Source: Deltaproteobacteria bacterium RBG_13_61_14
Lineage (GTDB): Bacteria > RBG-13-61-14
Length of the DNA: 14,089 nt
Reading direction: 5' to 3'
Assembly: GCA_001797815.1 (NCBI GenBank)
Contig: MGQK01000067.1
Span: 18,689-32,777 of the forward strand
Shown here: one piece after another, positions 1 through 13,785 of the stretch
Layout: every line of letters begins with the position of its first letter
Position numbering within the stretch: the stretch's first letter is position 1
The notes under the pieces: generated by a model
Told to the model about the DNA's origin: nothing
The model's database searches: none
The model's input: only the letters and a program-made list of their open reading frames with translations
Translations under genes and position numbers: made by a program

Positions 1-2251
1 AGACCAGGAGCCCCATCCGCCGCGCTTCCGAAAGATAGGCGAAGGTCGAGTAATAACCGCCCTGGTTCGAGATCACCGCGGCCATGAACTCGGCCGGAAA
101 GTGGGCGCGGAGCCAGGCCGACTTGAAGGAGACCAGCGCGTAGCTGGCCGAGTGGGGCTTGCAAAAGGAATAGCCGCTGAAGGAGAGGATCATCTTCCAG
201 ATTTTCTCGATCACCTCTTCCGCCGCGCCCCGCGCCCGCGCCCCCCGATAAAACTGCTCCCGGTATTCCAGGAGCCGTTTGGTCCGGTGCTTCTTGGACA
301 GGATCTTGCGCAACCCATCGCCGTCAACCGCGTCGAAACCCGCCAGTGCCATGGCCGCCTTGCACACGTCCTCCTGGTAGCACATGATCCCGAACGTCTC
401 CGACAAGAGCTCCTCCAGCACCGGGGGCAGCGGCTCCCACGACCCGCCGTGCAGGCGCCGCACGTATTCACGAATGAAATCATTGGCCGCCGGCCGGATG
501 AGGGAGGAGTGCGCCACCAGCCGCTCGAAGTCGCCGGTCCCGCACTTCTGCTGGAGCTGGCGCATGGCCGGGCTCTCCACGTAAAACACGCCGAGGGTGT
601 CGCCCCGGCTGAGCAGCGCCTGGGTCGCGGGGTCATCCAGGGGGTTGAACTTGGTGTAGAGAATTTCCCTCCCGTAATTCTTCTTGATCGCGGCCAGCGC
701 GTCGCGGATCACGGCCAGGCTGCGGTTCCCGAGCAGGTCAATCTTGACCAGGCCGGCGTCCTCGGTCTGATCCTTTTCCCAGTGGATGATGTTCACGCCC
801 TTGGCCGCGCGCTCGAGCGGCACCCGGCGCACAAGCTCGCCCGGCGCGATTACCACTCCGCCGCAGTGAACCGAGAGGTGGCGGGGGATACCCTCCAGCG
901 CGGTGGCCAGCCTTAAGATCTCGGGCCAGGGCGGATCGAGCTTCAAGTCTTTGAACCTGGGGTGCATCCGCACCAACTCCTCGGCGTTGCCCGCGTCCCA
1001 AAAGCCGCGCATCCGCTTGGTCACCCGGGAGATCTCGCCCTCGGGCAGTCCATACACTTTTGCAACTTCCCGCACCGCGGCCCGGGCCTGGAAAGCCACG
1101 TGGTTCGAGACCATGGCCGCGCCCCGGGCGCCGTATTTGGCGAAGACGTAATCGAGCACGCGATCGCGCTCGTCCCAGGGGAAGTCCACGTCAATGTCGG
1201 GCGGGTCTTTGCGCCCGGGGTTGAGGAACCGCTCGAAGAAGAGGTGGTGGCGGATCGGGTCCACGTGGGTGATCTTCAGGCAGTAGCTGACAATACTCGC
1301 CGCGGCGCTGCCCCGGCCGCAGGTGAGCGGGAAACGCCGGACAATGTCTTCCACCACCAAAAAGTAGTTGGCAAAACCCTTCTGCCGGATGACGTTCAGC
1401 TCGTGGTCCAGACGTTTCCGCACCGCCTCGCCGATCCCGCCGTAGCGCTCCCTGGCCCCGGCCTCGCATTTTTCGCGGAGAAGCTTAACCGCCGCTTCCT
1501 CATCCAGGCCGGCAAAGGCCGGGAAAAGCAGGCGGTCCCAGGGCGGATCGGAGAGCAAGCACTCTTCCGCCACCCGGCCGGCGTTCTCCAGAGCCGACGG
1601 GCAATGAGGCAGCCGGCGGGCGATTTCCGCGGCTGAGGTCAGCCACGCCCCGGGGTCGGCGAGCTCGGCCGGCGGGATCCGGGAGAGCGTGGTGTTGAGG
1701 TCAATGGCGCGAAGCAGGCGGTGGAGGGCTAATTCATCCGGCTCGGCAAAGTAAACATTGCCGGTGGCGACCGGCAAGAGATCCAGCTCGCGGGCCAGCT
1801 TGAGGAGCGCGCGGTCATCGCGGCCCGGCGGCAGCGCCACGTAGAGGTCGCGCCTGACCCCCGCCTGGACAAGAGCCTTGAGTAACACCAGATCATGGCT
1901 CAGAATAATAAGGCCAGCGCGATCTTCCTGAAGATAATTCGCGAGCGAAAAATTCTCTTGCAGGTGCCGGTCGGTGAGGATCTCGCAGAGCCGGGCATAA
2001 CCGGCTTTGTCCCGGACCAGGAGCACGACCTGTTCTTGATCGGTCCGGACCTCGGCCCCCAGGATCGGCTGAATTCCGGCTTCCTTCGCCGCCTGCCAGA
2101 ACCACACCGCGCCGTAAAGCCCGTTCAGGTCGGTAAGCGCGAGCGCGGTCATGCCTGACTCCTTGGCCTTCCGGCAGAGCGCCTCGGGCGAGCTGGCGCC
2201 CCGCAGGAAGCTGTAGTAAGAATGACACTGGAGATGGACAAAACCATTCAT
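1..2251 (-). CDS. dnaE2: DNA polymerase III alpha subunit, error-prone DnaE2/ImuC-like (C-terminus beyond window)
   Basis: Reading the minus strand from ATG 2251 gives 750 uninterrupted codons up to the window edge. The N-terminus (MNGFVHLQCHSYYSFLRGAS) is a PHP domain of C-family DNA polymerases. The palm follows, with GRGSAAASIVSYCL and PPDIDVDF; the two metal-binding aspartates are about D354 and D356, and the third is D505 in KIDLLGNRS, so the polymerase site looks intact. DnaE polymerases synthesise DNA on the sliding clamp; the DnaE2/ImuC subgroup does SOS-induced translesion synthesis. Assignment to that subgroup rests on the HSYYSFLRGAS start and on the ImuB-like gene upstream; a replicative DnaE is the alternative. 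Family members are about 1000-1100 aa, so roughly a third lies outside. The ATG is chosen from the usual family start; its ribosome site is weak, and in-frame GTGs at 2260 and 2278 are possible. The spacer from imuB is filled with repeats. Confidence 0.9.
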   Translation of the reverse strand, partial: MNGFVHLQCHSYYSFLRGASSPEALCRKAKESGMTALALTDLNGLYGAVWFWQAAKEAGIQPILGAEVRTDQEQVVLLVRDKAGYARLCEILTDRHLQENFSLANYLQEDRAGLIILSHDLVLLKALVQAGVRRDLYVALPPGRDDRALLKLARELDLLPVATGNVYFAEPDELALHRLLRAIDLNTTLSRIPPAELADPGAWLTSAAEIARRLPHCPSALENAGRVAEECLLSDPPWDRLLFPAFAGLDEEAAVKLLREKCEAGARERYGGIGEAVRKRLDHELNVIRQKGFANYFLVVEDIVRRFPLTCGRGSAAASIVSYCLKITHVDPIRHHLFFERFLNPGRKDPPDIDVDFPWDERDRVLDYVFAKYGARGAAMVSNHVAFQARAAVREVAKVYGLPEGEISRVTKRMRGFWDAGNAEELVRMHPRFKDLKLDPPWPEILRLATALEGIPRHLSVHCGGVVIAPGELVRRVPLERAAKGVNIIHWEKDQTEDAGLVKIDLLGNRSLAVIRDALAAIKKNYGREILYTKFNPLDDPATQALLSRGDTLGVFYVESPAMRQLQQKCGTGDFERLVAHSSLIRPAANDFIREYVRRLHGGSWEPLPPVLEELLSETFGIMCYQEDVCKAAMALAGFDAVDGDGLRKILSKKHRTKRLLEYREQFYRGARARGAAEEVIEKIWKMILSFSGYSFCKPHSASYALVSFKSAWLRAHFPAEFMAAVISNQGGYYSTFAYLSEARRMGLLV

Positions 2252-2270
2252 GACCGACACCCAAGAATTT

Positions 2271-2355
2271 CCATCCACCGATTTCGCCGATTAACGCGGA
2301 TTTTAAAAGAGAATACCGAGCGCTTTTAATTCTTCTTCTGAATCCGTGAAATCTG
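2271..2355. repeat. Imperfect inverted repeat of the 'GATTTCGCCGATTAACGCGGATT' type
   Basis: The left arm CCGATTTCGCCGATT (from about 2278) pairs imperfectly with AATCCGTGAAATCTG (2341-2355). Inner bases AAAAGAGAAT and ATTCTTCTT extend the pairing, so the segment could fold as a long hairpin. It begins 20 bp upstream of the dnaE start. The sequence type resembles dispersed intergenic repeats of many uncultured bacterial genomes; that comparison is from memory. Confidence 0.6.
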
Positions 2356-2764: not shown

Positions 2765-3955
2765 TCATCCTCTTCCTCTTAACTCCTTCTGCGGCATCGG
2801 TGGACATCTCCCGTAGCGCAGCGCCGCCTCGCCGAAGCGCGACCGGAGCCGATCCAGGGCCGCGACCAGGCCGCGTTCTTTGACCTCTGCCGCAGCCTCG
2901 GGAAACAGGCGGAGCTGACGCGGCTCGGGGCTCAGCTCCTTCAAGCTCAAGCCCAGGTAGCGCACCCGCGTCCGCCGGGTCCAGACGCTCTCCAAGAGCC
3001 GCTTGGCCGCGCCAAAAAGCGCGCCGTCCAAGTCCGTAGGATCGGTCAGCCTCACTTGCCGCCAAGCCGAGACGTGGTCGGCATAAGTGAGCTCCAGCCG
3101 GACCATCCCGGCCCGATGCTGGACTTGGCGCAGGCGCCGGCCGGCCCGCTCGACTAAAAGGTAGAGCACACCCAGGACCACCCGGTCGTCGTTGGAATCT
3201 TCGGCCAGGGTCTCCTCCTCCCGGATCGCGAGCGCCCGCTCGGCCGGCCGCACCGGGGAATCGTCCCGGCCGAGCGCATAGCGGTGCAAGCGATAGCCGA
3301 GAGAGCCGAAGGCCAGGAACAGGTGCTCGGGCGATATCCCGGCCAACTCGCCCACCCGGCCGATATTCAATTCCGAAAGCTTGACCTCGGCCGCTTCCCC
3401 GATCCCGGGCAGGACCTCCACCGGCAGCGGGGCCAGGAAGACGCGCTCGCCGCCGGGGAACACGTCGCACACGCCCCGGGGCCGGATCACCCGCGAGGCC
3501 ACCCGGCTCACCAGCTTGTTCGTGGCCAACCCCACGGCGCTCCGGAGCGAAAAGCGCGCCTTTAGCTCCTTCTGGATCTTCGCGCCAGTGTCCACCGCGG
3601 GGCCGAAGAGACGGCGGGTGCCGGTGAGGTCGAGAAAGAGGTGCCCGGCGCGCCAGGGCTCGATCAGGGGCGAGTATTGATCCAGATAAGTTTGCAGCGC
3701 GGCCGCGGCCTTGCGGTAGAGCGGCTCGTTGGGCGGGATCACGATCAGCCCCCGGCAGAATTTTCTGGCGACCGCCACCGGCATGCCCTTGCGCACGCCC
3801 TCAAGATAAGCCTCGCGCGAGACCGAGAGCGCCACCGCCCGGGGCGAGTTCGCCGGCGCGATCACCACCGGCCGCTCCCGCAGCGCCGAATCCTTCACCC
3901 GCTCGACCCCGATGGGGAAGGCGGAGACGTTGATATGTAACACGTCGCGGTCCAT
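2765..3955 (-). CDS. imuB: ImuB-like, catalytically dead Y-family polymerase homologue (SOS mutasome adaptor)
   Basis: This 396-aa protein aligns along its length with the DinB/ImuB Y-family: palm 1-165, helix-hairpin-helix thumb near VLPGIGEAAEVKLSEL (181-196), little finger about 240-340. The catalytic acids are gone. The N-terminal motif reads HINVSAFP, where DinB has HVDMDCFF, so N9 and S11 replace the aspartates and P14 the steric-gate Phe. The second motif reads IEPWRAGHLFLDLTG instead of IEPLSLDEAYLDVT, so G104 and H105 replace Asp-Glu. A clamp-binding peptide RQLRLF (346-351) is kept. ImuB proteins characteristically lack these acids and bridge the sliding clamp to DnaE2, which is the inferred role here. 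It is shorter than typical ImuB (about 500 aa), missing much of the usual C-terminal extension. GAGG lies 10 nt before the ATG. dnaE2 follows after a 513-bp repeat-filled spacer. Confidence 0.85.
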   Translation of the reverse strand: MDRDVLHINVSAFPIGVERVKDSALRERPVVIAPANSPRAVALSVSREAYLEGVRKGMPVAVARKFCRGLIVIPPNEPLYRKAAAALQTYLDQYSPLIEPWRAGHLFLDLTGTRRLFGPAVDTGAKIQKELKARFSLRSAVGLATNKLVSRVASRVIRPRGVCDVFPGGERVFLAPLPVEVLPGIGEAAEVKLSELNIGRVGELAGISPEHLFLAFGSLGYRLHRYALGRDDSPVRPAERALAIREEETLAEDSNDDRVVLGVLYLLVERAGRRLRQVQHRAGMVRLELTYADHVSAWRQVRLTDPTDLDGALFGAAKRLLESVWTRRTRVRYLGLSLKELSPEPRQLRLFPEAAAEVKERGLVAALDRLRSRFGEAALRYGRCPPMPQKELRGRG

Positions 3956-4041: not shown

Positions 4042-4065
4042 AGGGGCATGGCATGCCATGCCCCT
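4042..4065. repeat. Perfect 24-bp palindrome between the unknown gene and imuB
   Basis: Half-site AGGGGCATGGCA is followed at once by its exact reverse complement, giving a loop-free 24-bp palindrome; a T/G wobble and a G-C pair extend it by two bases on each side. It lies in the 158-bp gap before imuB. No T-run follows on the minus strand, so intrinsic termination is not supported. It could be a dispersed palindromic repeat, an mRNA-processing hairpin or a protein-binding site. Confidence 0.75.
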
Positions 4066-4113
4066 GCCTTCTTACTTGAATCCTTTGGATAACTTAAACT
4101 TAAAGAAAGCTGG

Positions 4114-4884
4114 CTACCTCTTCTTGGGCCAAAAAACTCCTAGCACAATCCAACTTGTGGGGTGTTGGAAAAGAGTCCCAACAAAAAAATGTGTGTCTTT
4201 ACCTGAATCACACATCTCATCGTAATATTTTTGCCGAACTTTTTGAGCGGCGATATTAGGATCGCTGAACTTATCCCTCATCTGGCGATAAAGCTGTCCG
4301 AGTTCCCAATCTTCGATCATCATGGTGTGCCCCTGACATTCGGGGTTGTCGCAAGTAAAAACATAGGAGAACTTAAATGGAATTTTCTCCAAAGGCTTCT
4401 GGTCCGGCCCGAACAATCTTTGCTGTTGAAATACAGTTTTCCATTGAGGTTTCCAATCTGGCTCCACAGGTTCGATGCGGAAATCTTGCACATACTTTGG
4501 TCGAACGATGCCAAGAGAAGTCTTGTCAGCCTCTTGTTTCTTCCAAAGTTCTTCCATGGTATGAGTACCCTTGGCCAGAACATATTTTCTGCGCTCCGCC
4601 CAATTCCGCTTGGTATCAAGCCGGGCAAGGGGTTGGATTGTGTCTACCTTGGGTCGGAAACTTTCCTTGCGTGGATCATTCGGATGCTTCACAACCTCCA
4701 ATTCGATCCACTGATATTTTTTGTACCACTGACAGTAGGGCTGGTAGCGATAGTCAATGGGGTAAAGTCGGATCCAATCTCCGTTTTCCAAAACCCCTGC
4801 CGTGCATACCAGTTCTTGGTAAGACTTGGAAGGTAGAGGATAAGTCTTAACCGTGATTAAAACCTTACGTTTCTCATAATTCAT
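4114..4884 (-). CDS. Unrecognised 256-aa protein with a CX4CX2H putative metal site
   Basis: I do not recognise this family. The start is the ATG at 4884 (MNYEKRKVLITVKTYPLPSK). It overlaps the upstream stop codon as ATGA and has GGAGG eight bases further up, whereas the longer reading lies inside the upstream gene. The N-terminal third is beta-rich (RKVLITVKTYP, ELVCTAGVLENGDWIRLYPI, YQWIELEVVKHP). The middle is charged and Trp-rich. Residues 171-195 hold CDNPECQGH (C178, C183, H186), possibly binding zinc, followed by IEDWELGQLYRQM. The C-terminus reads DTHFFVGT and HPTSWIVLGVFWPKK. No signal peptide or membrane segment is seen. Base composition is well below its neighbours' (24 of 60 G+C at 4201-4260). 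Its coupling to the DUF488 gene argues for a joint function; I cannot name the reaction. Confidence 0.85.
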   Translation of the reverse strand: MNYEKRKVLITVKTYPLPSKSYQELVCTAGVLENGDWIRLYPIDYRYQPYCQWYKKYQWIELEVVKHPNDPRKESFRPKVDTIQPLARLDTKRNWAERRKYVLAKGTHTMEELWKKQEADKTSLGIVRPKYVQDFRIEPVEPDWKPQWKTVFQQQRLFGPDQKPLEKIPFKFSYVFTCDNPECQGHTMMIEDWELGQLYRQMRDKFSDPNIAAQKVRQKYYDEMCDSGKDTHFFVGTLFQHPTSWIVLGVFWPKKR

Positions 4885-5759
4885 CTTGCCTCCAGATGAT
4901 GAACAGGCAGCCCTGAATTCCGGGCCAATGCTTGGGCTAGACGACTCCGATGGCAACTATTCGCGTCCGCTTCCACGCATAACAAAGCCGTAGGCTGAGT
5001 CCGAATCAACCTTAAAGCTTGGCCCATAGCCTCTTGATGGCGAGGCAAAATCGCTTTTTCATAGCGATTCAGTAAGGCCCGACGGGATGCCGGTGTGCTC
5101 AAGTTTTCTCTTTGTTCCTGGGGGACACCCAACTCAGGGAGATGCCGATATTCGATGCCCACCTTGGAGCAAAATTCTGCCAGGGCATTTTGGGTGAAGC
5201 CCCACTTCCGCGACCAGGGGTTGTTCCGGACATCCAAAATTTGTTTGATTCCGTGCTGGATGCAGGCGTTGAGAAAGCCATCCACTGACGTTCCCTCGTA
5301 GCCAATGGTGTAGATGGAAATTGGAGCCACGGGAGGAGAAGAAGATTGCGCCTTGAGCTCGCTAAAGTAAGTAAACCTGGGGTAGCGGTCATAAATTATC
5401 TTAATCAAGTGGTGATCCGAAACGCGGGAAAACCGCCGCTCGATCTTGGCTACCCCTTCGCGAAGCGAGACCGGCATCTTTTCCACTTCCTCTGCCGCTT
5501 CAGTTTTCCGAGTTTTGAGAATTTCTAAATCCTCATCCCCTCGAATCCATCCATCTCGCGCCAACTCGTTGAGATCGCGATAAAGCGCAAAAGAGAACGG
5601 CCCATATTTATATGGCAAAAAGTCATAAAACGGCCCTCGCTCTCCCTCAGGCAACTCTTGGGCAACCAAAAATGCCATCTTCACCAGCCGAGTTTTAGAA
5701 GGCGACCCCTGATGTCCCAGCAGGAAAGAAAGAATGACTCTTTGCGCGTTTCTCATCAT
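4881..5759 (-). CDS. Panacea-like domain fused to DUF488
   Basis: The 292-aa protein has two parts. Residues 1-135 resemble the Panacea/SocA-like (DUF4065) or YwgA-like helical domain: KMAFLVAQE, then PFYDFLPYKYGPFSFALYRD and LNELARDGWI. Residues 147-292 are a full DUF488 domain: TIGYEG (151-156), ILDVRNNPWSRKWGF (174-188), RHLPELGVP, LLCVEADANSCHRSRLA (259-275) and VHHLE. The conserved Cys/His motif CX8CHR is intact (C261, C269, H270). DUF488 has no established reaction; Panacea domains are known as antitoxin or chaperone-like domains. The start is the ATG at 5759, preceded by GGAGG and GAGGAAAAT; a second ATG follows immediately. It starts 43 bp after lexA on the same strand and overlaps the next gene by 4 bp. 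G+C is lower than lexA's (33 of 60 at 5041-5100 against 43 of 60 at 6121-6180), suggesting acquisition by transfer. Confidence 0.85.
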   Translation of the reverse strand: MMRNAQRVILSFLLGHQGSPSKTRLVKMAFLVAQELPEGERGPFYDFLPYKYGPFSFALYRDLNELARDGWIRGDEDLEILKTRKTEAAEEVEKMPVSLREGVAKIERRFSRVSDHHLIKIIYDRYPRFTYFSELKAQSSSPPVAPISIYTIGYEGTSVDGFLNACIQHGIKQILDVRNNPWSRKWGFTQNALAEFCSKVGIEYRHLPELGVPQEQRENLSTPASRRALLNRYEKAILPRHQEAMGQALRLIRTQPTALLCVEADANSCHRSRLAQALARNSGLPVHHLEAR

Positions 5760-13099: not shown

Positions 13100-13495
13100 A
13101 TGACCAAGCAAGATCATATCCAGTACTGGATGGAGCTGGCGGAGCATGATTGGGAGACCTGCGAGTCCCTCTTTGCAACCGGCCGTTATGATTCTTGCCT
13201 GTTTTACGCCCATTTGCTTTTGGAAAAGCTGTTGAAAGCGTTATGGGTCAAGAGCCATGCCGAGAACGTCCCGCCCAAAATTCACCCTCTGCATCTCTTG
13301 GCCTTGGATATCAATCTTGAACTTCCTCAAGAGACCTTGACCTACCTCAAGCAAGTCAATCGTTTCGCGATTGAGAGTCGGTACCCTGACTATAAAATGT
13401 CTTTTTATCGGGAATGCACGCGCGAATTCACCGAAGCAAACCTGAAGCGCATTCAGGAGACCGCGACATGGCTGAAAGAGAAGCTCAAGAGTTGA
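13100..13495 (+). CDS. HEPN-domain protein, toxin-like partner of an MNT pair
   Basis: The 131-aa, mostly helical protein matches the HEPN fold: YWMELAEHDWETCESLFATG, YDSCLFYAHLLLEKLLKAL (30-48), PPKIHPLHLLALD and IESRYPDY (91-98). HEPN proteins paired with a minimal nucleotidyltransferase often act as toxin-antitoxin modules, where HEPN is an RNase. The typical RX4-6H catalytic motif is not visible; the only Arg-then-His spacing is R29 to H38. RNase activity is therefore doubtful, and a substrate- or partner-binding role is possible. GGGAG lies close before ATG 13100. Its 3' end overlaps the MNT gene by 28 bp. Local G+C is low (27 of 60 at 13201-13260), suggesting transfer. Confidence 0.85.
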   Translation: MTKQDHIQYWMELAEHDWETCESLFATGRYDSCLFYAHLLLEKLLKALWVKSHAENVPPKIHPLHLLALDINLELPQETLTYLKQVNRFAIESRYPDYKMSFYRECTREFTEANLKRIQETATWLKEKLKS

Positions 13496-13785
13496 CCGCA
13501 ATCCGGGAATTTCTGAACATGCTCCGTCATCAAGACATCCGCGTGGATCAAGCCTATTGGTTCGGTTCCCGGGCGCAGGGACAAGGAACCCGTTACAGCG
13601 ACTTGGACGTGGCGGTTATCTCTCCGGACCTGAGCGGGAATCGGTTCCGGGACAGCCTCCGGATCATCGAGGCGACGCCGGAGGCGGAAGCCCACATCGA
13701 AGTCCATCCTTTCCGCCCCGAAGATTTCACCGAGGATGATCCCTTTGCCGCGGAGATTATGCGCACCGGCATCCGGATCGAATAA
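13468..13785 (+). CDS. Minimal nucleotidyltransferase (MNT), antitoxin-like partner of HEPN
   Basis: The 105-aa protein has the polymerase-beta-type motif GSX10[22 protein letters not shown], with G33-S34 and D45/D47. The usual third acidic position may be E78 in HIEVHPF. Some MNT antitoxins modify their HEPN partner with AMP groups; whether that happens here is inference. ATG 13468 is chosen because AGGAG lies eight bases upstream; the longer in-frame reading from 13414 would overlap HEPN by 82 bp. The gene overlaps HEPN by 28 bp and ends one base before icd. Confidence 0.88.

Follow-up and report, generated by a model that had tools for sequence, protein, structure and literature searches.

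Within a 14,089-nucleotide stretch of DNA from Deltaproteobacteria bacterium RBG_13_61_14 (the window), two overlapping minus-strand genes, ORF1 and ORF2, make up a PDC-M19 pair, which is best explained as a clamp-targeted, DNA-processing defense module that would be held in check by a Panacea-like domain (probability roughly 0.45). ORF1 matches the PADLOC model PDC-M19A with an E value of 9.6e-73 (residues 3-283), and ORF2, whose gene overlaps this PDC-M19A homologue, matches PDC-M19B with an E value of 1.9e-87 (residues 4-255); this is the same two-gene unit, with both models matched over almost their full length. Since PADLOC already lists PDC-M19 as a two-gene phage-defense candidate, it is not a new kind of system; what is new is the view of its domain make-up and its link to the sliding clamp. 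PADLOC gives no mechanism; the present analysis describes a Panacea/DarG-like domain in ORF1 and, in ORF2, OB folds, clamp motifs, and a zinc site. A literature search found no paper that names PDC-M19 or describes how it works, and none that links DUF488 with Panacea. Neither Pfam nor NCBIfam gave a match for ORF2.

The pair lies within an SOS mutagenesis operon

The genes of the locus are as follows.

2-2278, minus strand: dnaE2-like error-prone polymerase gene, continuing beyond the window
2765-3955, minus strand: imuB-like Y-family polymerase gene (IMS, IMS_C), downstream of the pair
4114-4884, minus strand: ORF2 (PDC-M19B), tandem OB-fold protein of 256 aa, with its ATG at 4884
4881-4897, minus strand: ATGA stop-start overlap with GGAGG, Shine-Dalgarno-like
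4881-5759, minus strand: ORF1 (PDC-M19A), fusion of a Panacea/DarG-like N-terminal domain with DUF488, 292 aa
5803-6402, minus strand: lexA (TIGR00498 equivalog), upstream of the pair

The ATGA at 4881-4884 provides both the stop codon of ORF1 and the ATG of ORF2, and GGAGG lies 4 bases 5' of that ATG (CTGGAGGCAAGATGA). Both minus-strand reading frames, the 4-base overlap, and the GGAGG had been reported in an earlier sequence-only reading of this DNA and are confirmed, as is the low G+C content (45-53% in the pair versus 58-69% for lexA, imuB, and dnaE2 around it). The flanks themselves, lexA on one side and imuB-dnaE2 on the other, are context that the earlier reading did not include.

In genome G001, which belongs to the same order, the pair is absent; lexA and imuB are separated by a gap of 18 bp and are followed by dnaE2. 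Because lexA-imuB-dnaE2 is uninterrupted there, the ORF1-ORF2 pair is an insertion into, or a loss from, a conserved lexA-imuB-dnaE2 SOS mutagenesis operon, and the low G+C content of the pair favors insertion. An ORF2 homologue was looked for in the genomes of two relatives and found in neither. In the source genome, ORF1 and ORF2 are probably transcribed together with the operon; a search for known LexA boxes near the operon gave no match. The interval between ORF2 and imuB holds a perfect 24-bp palindrome, AGGGGCATGGCATGCCATGCCCCT, at 4042-4065, and similar short elements occur at dozens of sites in the genome. Elsewhere in the window, at 13100-13785 on the plus strand, overlapping genes for HEPN (PF05168) and MNT nucleotidyltransferase proteins form a typical HEPN/MNT toxin-antitoxin pair.

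Pairing and spread of PDC-M19

ORF2 homologues are patchily distributed. They were found in 17 of 386 sampled genomes, on 23 plasmid records (11 of them conjugative), and in 42 viral contigs, as well as in Gordonia phages, and a single scan that covered 84,980 species genomes turned up at least 563 stretches with a homologue; a search of viral contigs with archaeal queries gave no match. Three sampled genomes (L014, L015, and L019) contain ORF2 homologues with internal stop codons, suggestive of decaying copies.

Across many phyla, plasmids, and prophages, these homologues are in most cases accompanied by DUF488: 137 of 146 loci have a DUF488 gene within 400 bp, and several of the 9 loci without an adjacent one lie at contig or locus ends. 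The DUF488 gene is upstream on the same strand in 115 of the 137 loci (89 of these with a Panacea-like domain), convergent in 20, and downstream in 2. Among 91 same-strand homologous pairs, the spacing lies between -60 and +30 bp in 89, and an overlap of exactly 4 bases occurs in 25, which indicates that the ATGA overlap is not due to chance. Furthermore, the pairwise-distance matrices of M19A and M19B are correlated (r = 0.76; permutation maximum, 0.11). Natural M19A-M19B fusions were sought, and none was found. Thus, the proposal that the two genes form a module is strongly supported by their adjacency and co-evolution, but the idea of obligate co-translation was too strong, given the 20 loci in which the genes converge.

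ORF2 is a predicted tandem OB-fold protein with clamp-binding-like motifs

The AlphaFold2 model of ORF2, built from an alignment of 78 sequences (pLDDT, 96.6), consists of two beta domains. The N-terminal domain is predicted to be an OB fold, most similar by VIA to the telomere-end-binding protein TEBP (Z 8.9), RecO (Z 8.8), and PriB (Z 8.5). The second is also predicted to be an OB fold from our own reading of the strand order, together with the Foldseek matches of the whole chain, which are to tandem-OB DNA binders (LEF-3, Teb1, CST, RPA, and HIN) with low TM scores of 0.2-0.4; the best of these is LEF-3 with single-stranded DNA (E value, 3e-4). Solved structures related by sequence were also sought, and none was convincing. 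Within the M19B family, R39, D70, and R72 are invariant and E74 is nearly so. The following short features are relevant here.

4411-4425, minus strand: QQRLF, internal clamp-binding-like motif of ORF2 (aa 154-158), located in the loop that follows helix 146-153
4327-4353, minus strand: CX4CX2H (C178, C183, H186), first part of a probable zinc site
4210-4212, minus strand: C225, probable fourth zinc ligand
2903-2917, minus strand: QLRLF in the neighboring ImuB (aa 347-351), of the same motif class as in ORF2

The CX4CX2H noted previously is correct, and the distal C225 can be added as its probable fourth ligand. Where the first cluster contains at least two Cys and a His, about 73% of the homologues have Cys at position 225, versus 0 of the 33 whose first cluster has no Cys. 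C178, C183, H186, and C225 probably constitute a zinc site that has been lost as a unit in some homologues and is thus common but dispensable.

The consensus for binding the bacterial beta clamp is QL(S/D)LF, and the archaeal and eukaryotic partners of PCNA carry Qxx(I/L)xxFF (PMC9690074). In ORF2 homologues, the internal Qxx(L/M)(F/W) motif retains Q in 128, L in 110, and F or W in 121 of 133 sequences; in the model it lies in a loop, with a pLDDT of about 87 in this region. A second motif, Qxx(LIM)(FL), is found within the last 14 residues of 71 of the 133 homologues (shuffled mean, 3.5; maximum, 9) versus 1 of 520 neighbor proteins (p 2e-56). When the homologues are clustered at less than 60% identity, 65 of 73 clusters carry at least one motif. 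The C-terminal copy, a terminal QxxLF, is absent from the source-genome ORF2, whose C terminus, previously described as conserved-looking, is in fact shorter than in most homologues. Immediately after the ORF2 stop (window positions 4085-4113), the next frame encodes GSQLSLSL, which resembles a clamp hexapeptide. It was considered as a remnant of this motif, but the two nearest homologues are likewise without the tail, so that the resemblance may be due to chance.

In archaea, a different motif is seen. At the aligned internal site, the Sulfolobus and Saccharolobus homologues have the PIP-box-like QATLDQYI and QATLEQYI, and the Natronococcus homologue ends in a PIP-like QPGLDSF; the Haloquadratum homologue was found to have no clear PIP box. 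These four archaeal sequences are suggestive of a switch from a bacterial beta-clamp motif to an archaeal PIP motif. Taken together, these findings make binding of ORF2 to nucleic acid and to the sliding clamp likely, the clamp binding being well supported by sequence. Short motifs can mislead, and the internal motif might instead pack inside ORF2 or bind ORF1. The link to nucleic acids guessed at earlier is supported by the predicted tandem OB folds and by the clamp-like motifs.

ORF1 joins a Panacea/DarG-like domain to DUF488

ORF1 is predicted (pLDDT, 96.4) to contain two domains.

5349-5756, minus strand: helical domain at the N terminus (aa 2-137), resembling SocA/Panacea and carrying a YKYGPFSF motif
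4896-5315, minus strand: DUF488 domain (aa 149-288; PF04343)
4947-4979, minus strand: CxEx5CHR, putative active-site loop (aa 261-271)

The sequence-only reading had described ORF1 as an antitoxin-associated domain joined to DUF488. DUF488 is evident, with PF04343 matching at an E value of 3.6e-24 (86.1 bits versus a curated cut-off of 22.2). The Panacea domain, in contrast, is reached through relatives and structure: Pfam SocA_Panacea matches 18 of 72 ORF1 orthologues (best E value, 7.5e-5) and does not match the source-genome protein at E<1, and thus the assignment rests on the family and on a structural match. The best VIA match of the N-terminal domain is to 7yk3_B, the DarG chain of Mycobacterium tuberculosis DarTG, with a Z score of 12.6 over 130 residues, a value that helical folds can reach by chance. 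A weak sequence alignment over the same stretch pairs the family consensus YDFVPYKYGPFS with LDFTPGRYGPYS. The GPV signature of Panacea (PF13274) is GPF in the source-genome ORF1 and GAF, GCY, or GCF in some relatives. The resemblance to DarTG extends to design, with an enzyme domain fused to a partner-binding domain in both, but neither a DarT ADP-ribosyltransferase nor a DarG macrodomain was detected by Pfam in ORF1 or ORF2. Panacea antitoxins neutralize many toxins, SocB among them (PMC8832971), and a sensor role has also been proposed for Panacea (PMC10440598). The Panacea-like domain is fused to DUF488 in about two-thirds of the loci and is missing from about one-third. Part of the N-terminal domain (window positions 5349-5690) also matches the C-terminal part of the PADLOC model for a type I specificity subunit (E value, 3.6e-14), and some HsdS proteins may carry a fused Panacea-like domain.

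Within DUF488, the residues D176, R178, C261, E263, C269, H270, and R271 are invariant, and of 111 partners, 110 have CxEx4-7CHR, the sole exception being L124:1311-1697. The motif previously given as an intact CX8CHR is indeed intact, but it was miscounted, the real spacing being CX7CHR (C261-VEADANS-C269-H-R). The predicted fold is similar to those of PTP and the tetrapyrrole methylases (Z 8.7-9.0), in agreement with the work of Burroughs and Aravind in 2023, which reportedly placed DUF488 in the rhodanese-phosphatase superfamily, within a RapZ-C/DUF488/DUF4326 clade. Unlike other DUF488 domains of that superfamily, the DUF488 of M19 is tied to a subunit with OB folds and clamp motifs. For the sister domain DUF4326, a link among signaling, DNA modification, and replication has been predicted (PMC7824862). 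That the DUF488 of M19A acts on DNA ends is a putative chemistry that can be proposed only tentatively. In the archaea Saccharolobus and Haloquadratum, the partner of M19B is a ParB-annotated protein with DUF488 instead of a Panacea-DUF488 protein, and an archaeal ParB-DUF488-HTH protein has been found to bind CTP (PMC12704722).

Genomic neighborhood and mobile carriage

At 80 chromosomal loci, 153 PADLOC families were matched by the immediate neighbors versus 44 by genes at least 5 places away, with type I restriction subunits foremost, an enrichment that is only indicative because the counts are of families with redundant PADLOC models. The neighbors at these loci are heterogeneous, and a fixed third gene was therefore rejected; the two families occur neither mostly apart nor in plain metabolic operons, the outcomes that would have spoken against the original proposal. 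An association with the SOS response as a trait of the family was likewise rejected, since no other M19 locus lies beside lexA, imuB, or dnaE2; the lone near-exception is a copy on a Streptomyces plasmid that has an imuB-like match at a distance of about 4 kb.

The commonest neighbors in viral contigs are integrases, endolysins, and DNA methyltransferases. In the temperate Gordonia phage Nymphadora, the M19B homologue starts at the stop codon of the immunity repressor gene (TGATG), the DUF488 gene is convergent with it, and an integrase gene is nearby. Nymphadora gene 42 (L029:6828-7280), annotated as 'HipA toxin', encodes a DUF488 protein, apparently a misannotation. The layout matches that of CarolAnn genes 43/44, a RexAB-like pair that is proven to act in exclusion and is co-expressed with the repressor (PMC6426606), and that of lambda RexAB, which likewise lies beside its repressor. 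However, the proteins are unrelated, and M19 has no membrane component; consequently, CarolAnn 43/44 were rejected as M19 homologues (PMC6426606). The related phage Kita carries the validated RosmerTA defense system (PMC10440598), and the M19 pair is absent from the corresponding place. The notion of a defense module, which was already PADLOC's own proposal, is thus plausible and is suggested by carriage on plasmids and prophages, as in the repressor-pair-integrase arrangement of the Gordonia phage. On this context, an anti-phage role for PDC-M19 can be considered somewhat favored as a candidate.

Models for the function of PDC-M19

In one alternative model, PDC-M19 would be a toxin-antitoxin system like SocAB of Caulobacter, in which ORF2 is a clamp poison that blocks access of the polymerase to DnaN, ORF1 is the Panacea antitoxin, and DUF488 is secondary. 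SocB blocks replication because its clamp motif occupies the cleft of DnaN (PMC9690074), and SocA is a Panacea-domain antitoxin (PMC8832971); in both systems, then, a Panacea-type domain is in one partner and a clamp-binding motif or motifs, one or two in M19B homologues, are in the other. An antitoxin-first order and ATGA coupling are also common. However, M19A adds DUF488, which is present with its putative active site in every architecture, including those without Panacea, and convergent genes would be awkward for co-expression of an antitoxin. In addition, M19B, with its 256 residues, its pair of OB domains, and its conserved R39, D70, R72, and E74, all polar, goes beyond the needs of a simple clamp blocker. 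The constancy of the DUF488 chemistry and the existence of convergent loci thus render a plain toxin-antitoxin system unlikely.

Alternatively, the pair may function in repair or damage tolerance rather than in defense, with ORF2 bringing DUF488 to stalled forks for the cleaning of DNA ends. This would explain its site in an SOS mutagenesis operon, between lexA and imuB-dnaE2, and would suit OB folds akin to those of RecO, PriB, and SSB and a clamp motif that is shared with ImuB. Yet that site is not repeated elsewhere, apart from the imuB-like Streptomyces plasmid case, the family is patchily distributed, and its carriage on plasmids and prophages points to conflict more than to housekeeping; a plain repair role is thus improbable. 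A third idea, in which the Qxx(L/M)F motifs serve for docking on M19A or some other partner instead of on the clamp, would accommodate the co-evolution of M19A and M19B and a pLDDT of about 87, which allows that the motif packs on something, but it is very unlikely, because the pattern (fixed at positions 1, 4, and 5, with L, M, or G at 2 and a variable 3), the second copy at the extreme C terminus, and the PIP-like replacement in Sulfolobales all match clamp motifs specifically.

In the preferred model of a restrained, clamp-targeted defense module, PDC-M19 would be a mobile system of two components that works at the replication fork, most likely against phages. M19B, as a tandem OB-fold nucleic-acid binder, would dock on the sliding clamp through its internal motif and, in most relatives, a C-terminal one. 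M19A would supply the chemistry through the fixed CxEx5CHR site of DUF488, probably on DNA ends or terminal phosphates. The fused Panacea/DarG-like domain would probably bind ORF2 or a phage trigger, so that the pair is inactive until infection; upon activation, DUF488 would be brought to clamp-loaded DNA of the phage or the host, and replication would be blocked or aborted. For the family as a whole, it is conceivable, if rather doubtful, that PDC-M19 delivers a DUF488 DNA-processing enzyme to forks by way of the clamp, with a targeting subunit adapted to each domain of life, its motifs being of the beta-clamp type in bacteria and of the PIP-like PCNA type in archaea, under a Panacea/DarG-type restraint or, in archaea, the control of a ParB-CTPase fold.

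PDC-M19 is a widespread candidate, and the clamp motifs provide the first concrete, testable mechanism for it. The archaeal motif switch offers a direct evolutionary test of the clamp link. If the motifs work, PDC-M19 would defend by targeting the sliding clamp or by making use of it, the clamp being a hub that is common to host and phage replication, and it would join the pairing of Panacea domains with clamp-binding partners, as in SocAB, to DUF488 in conflict systems.
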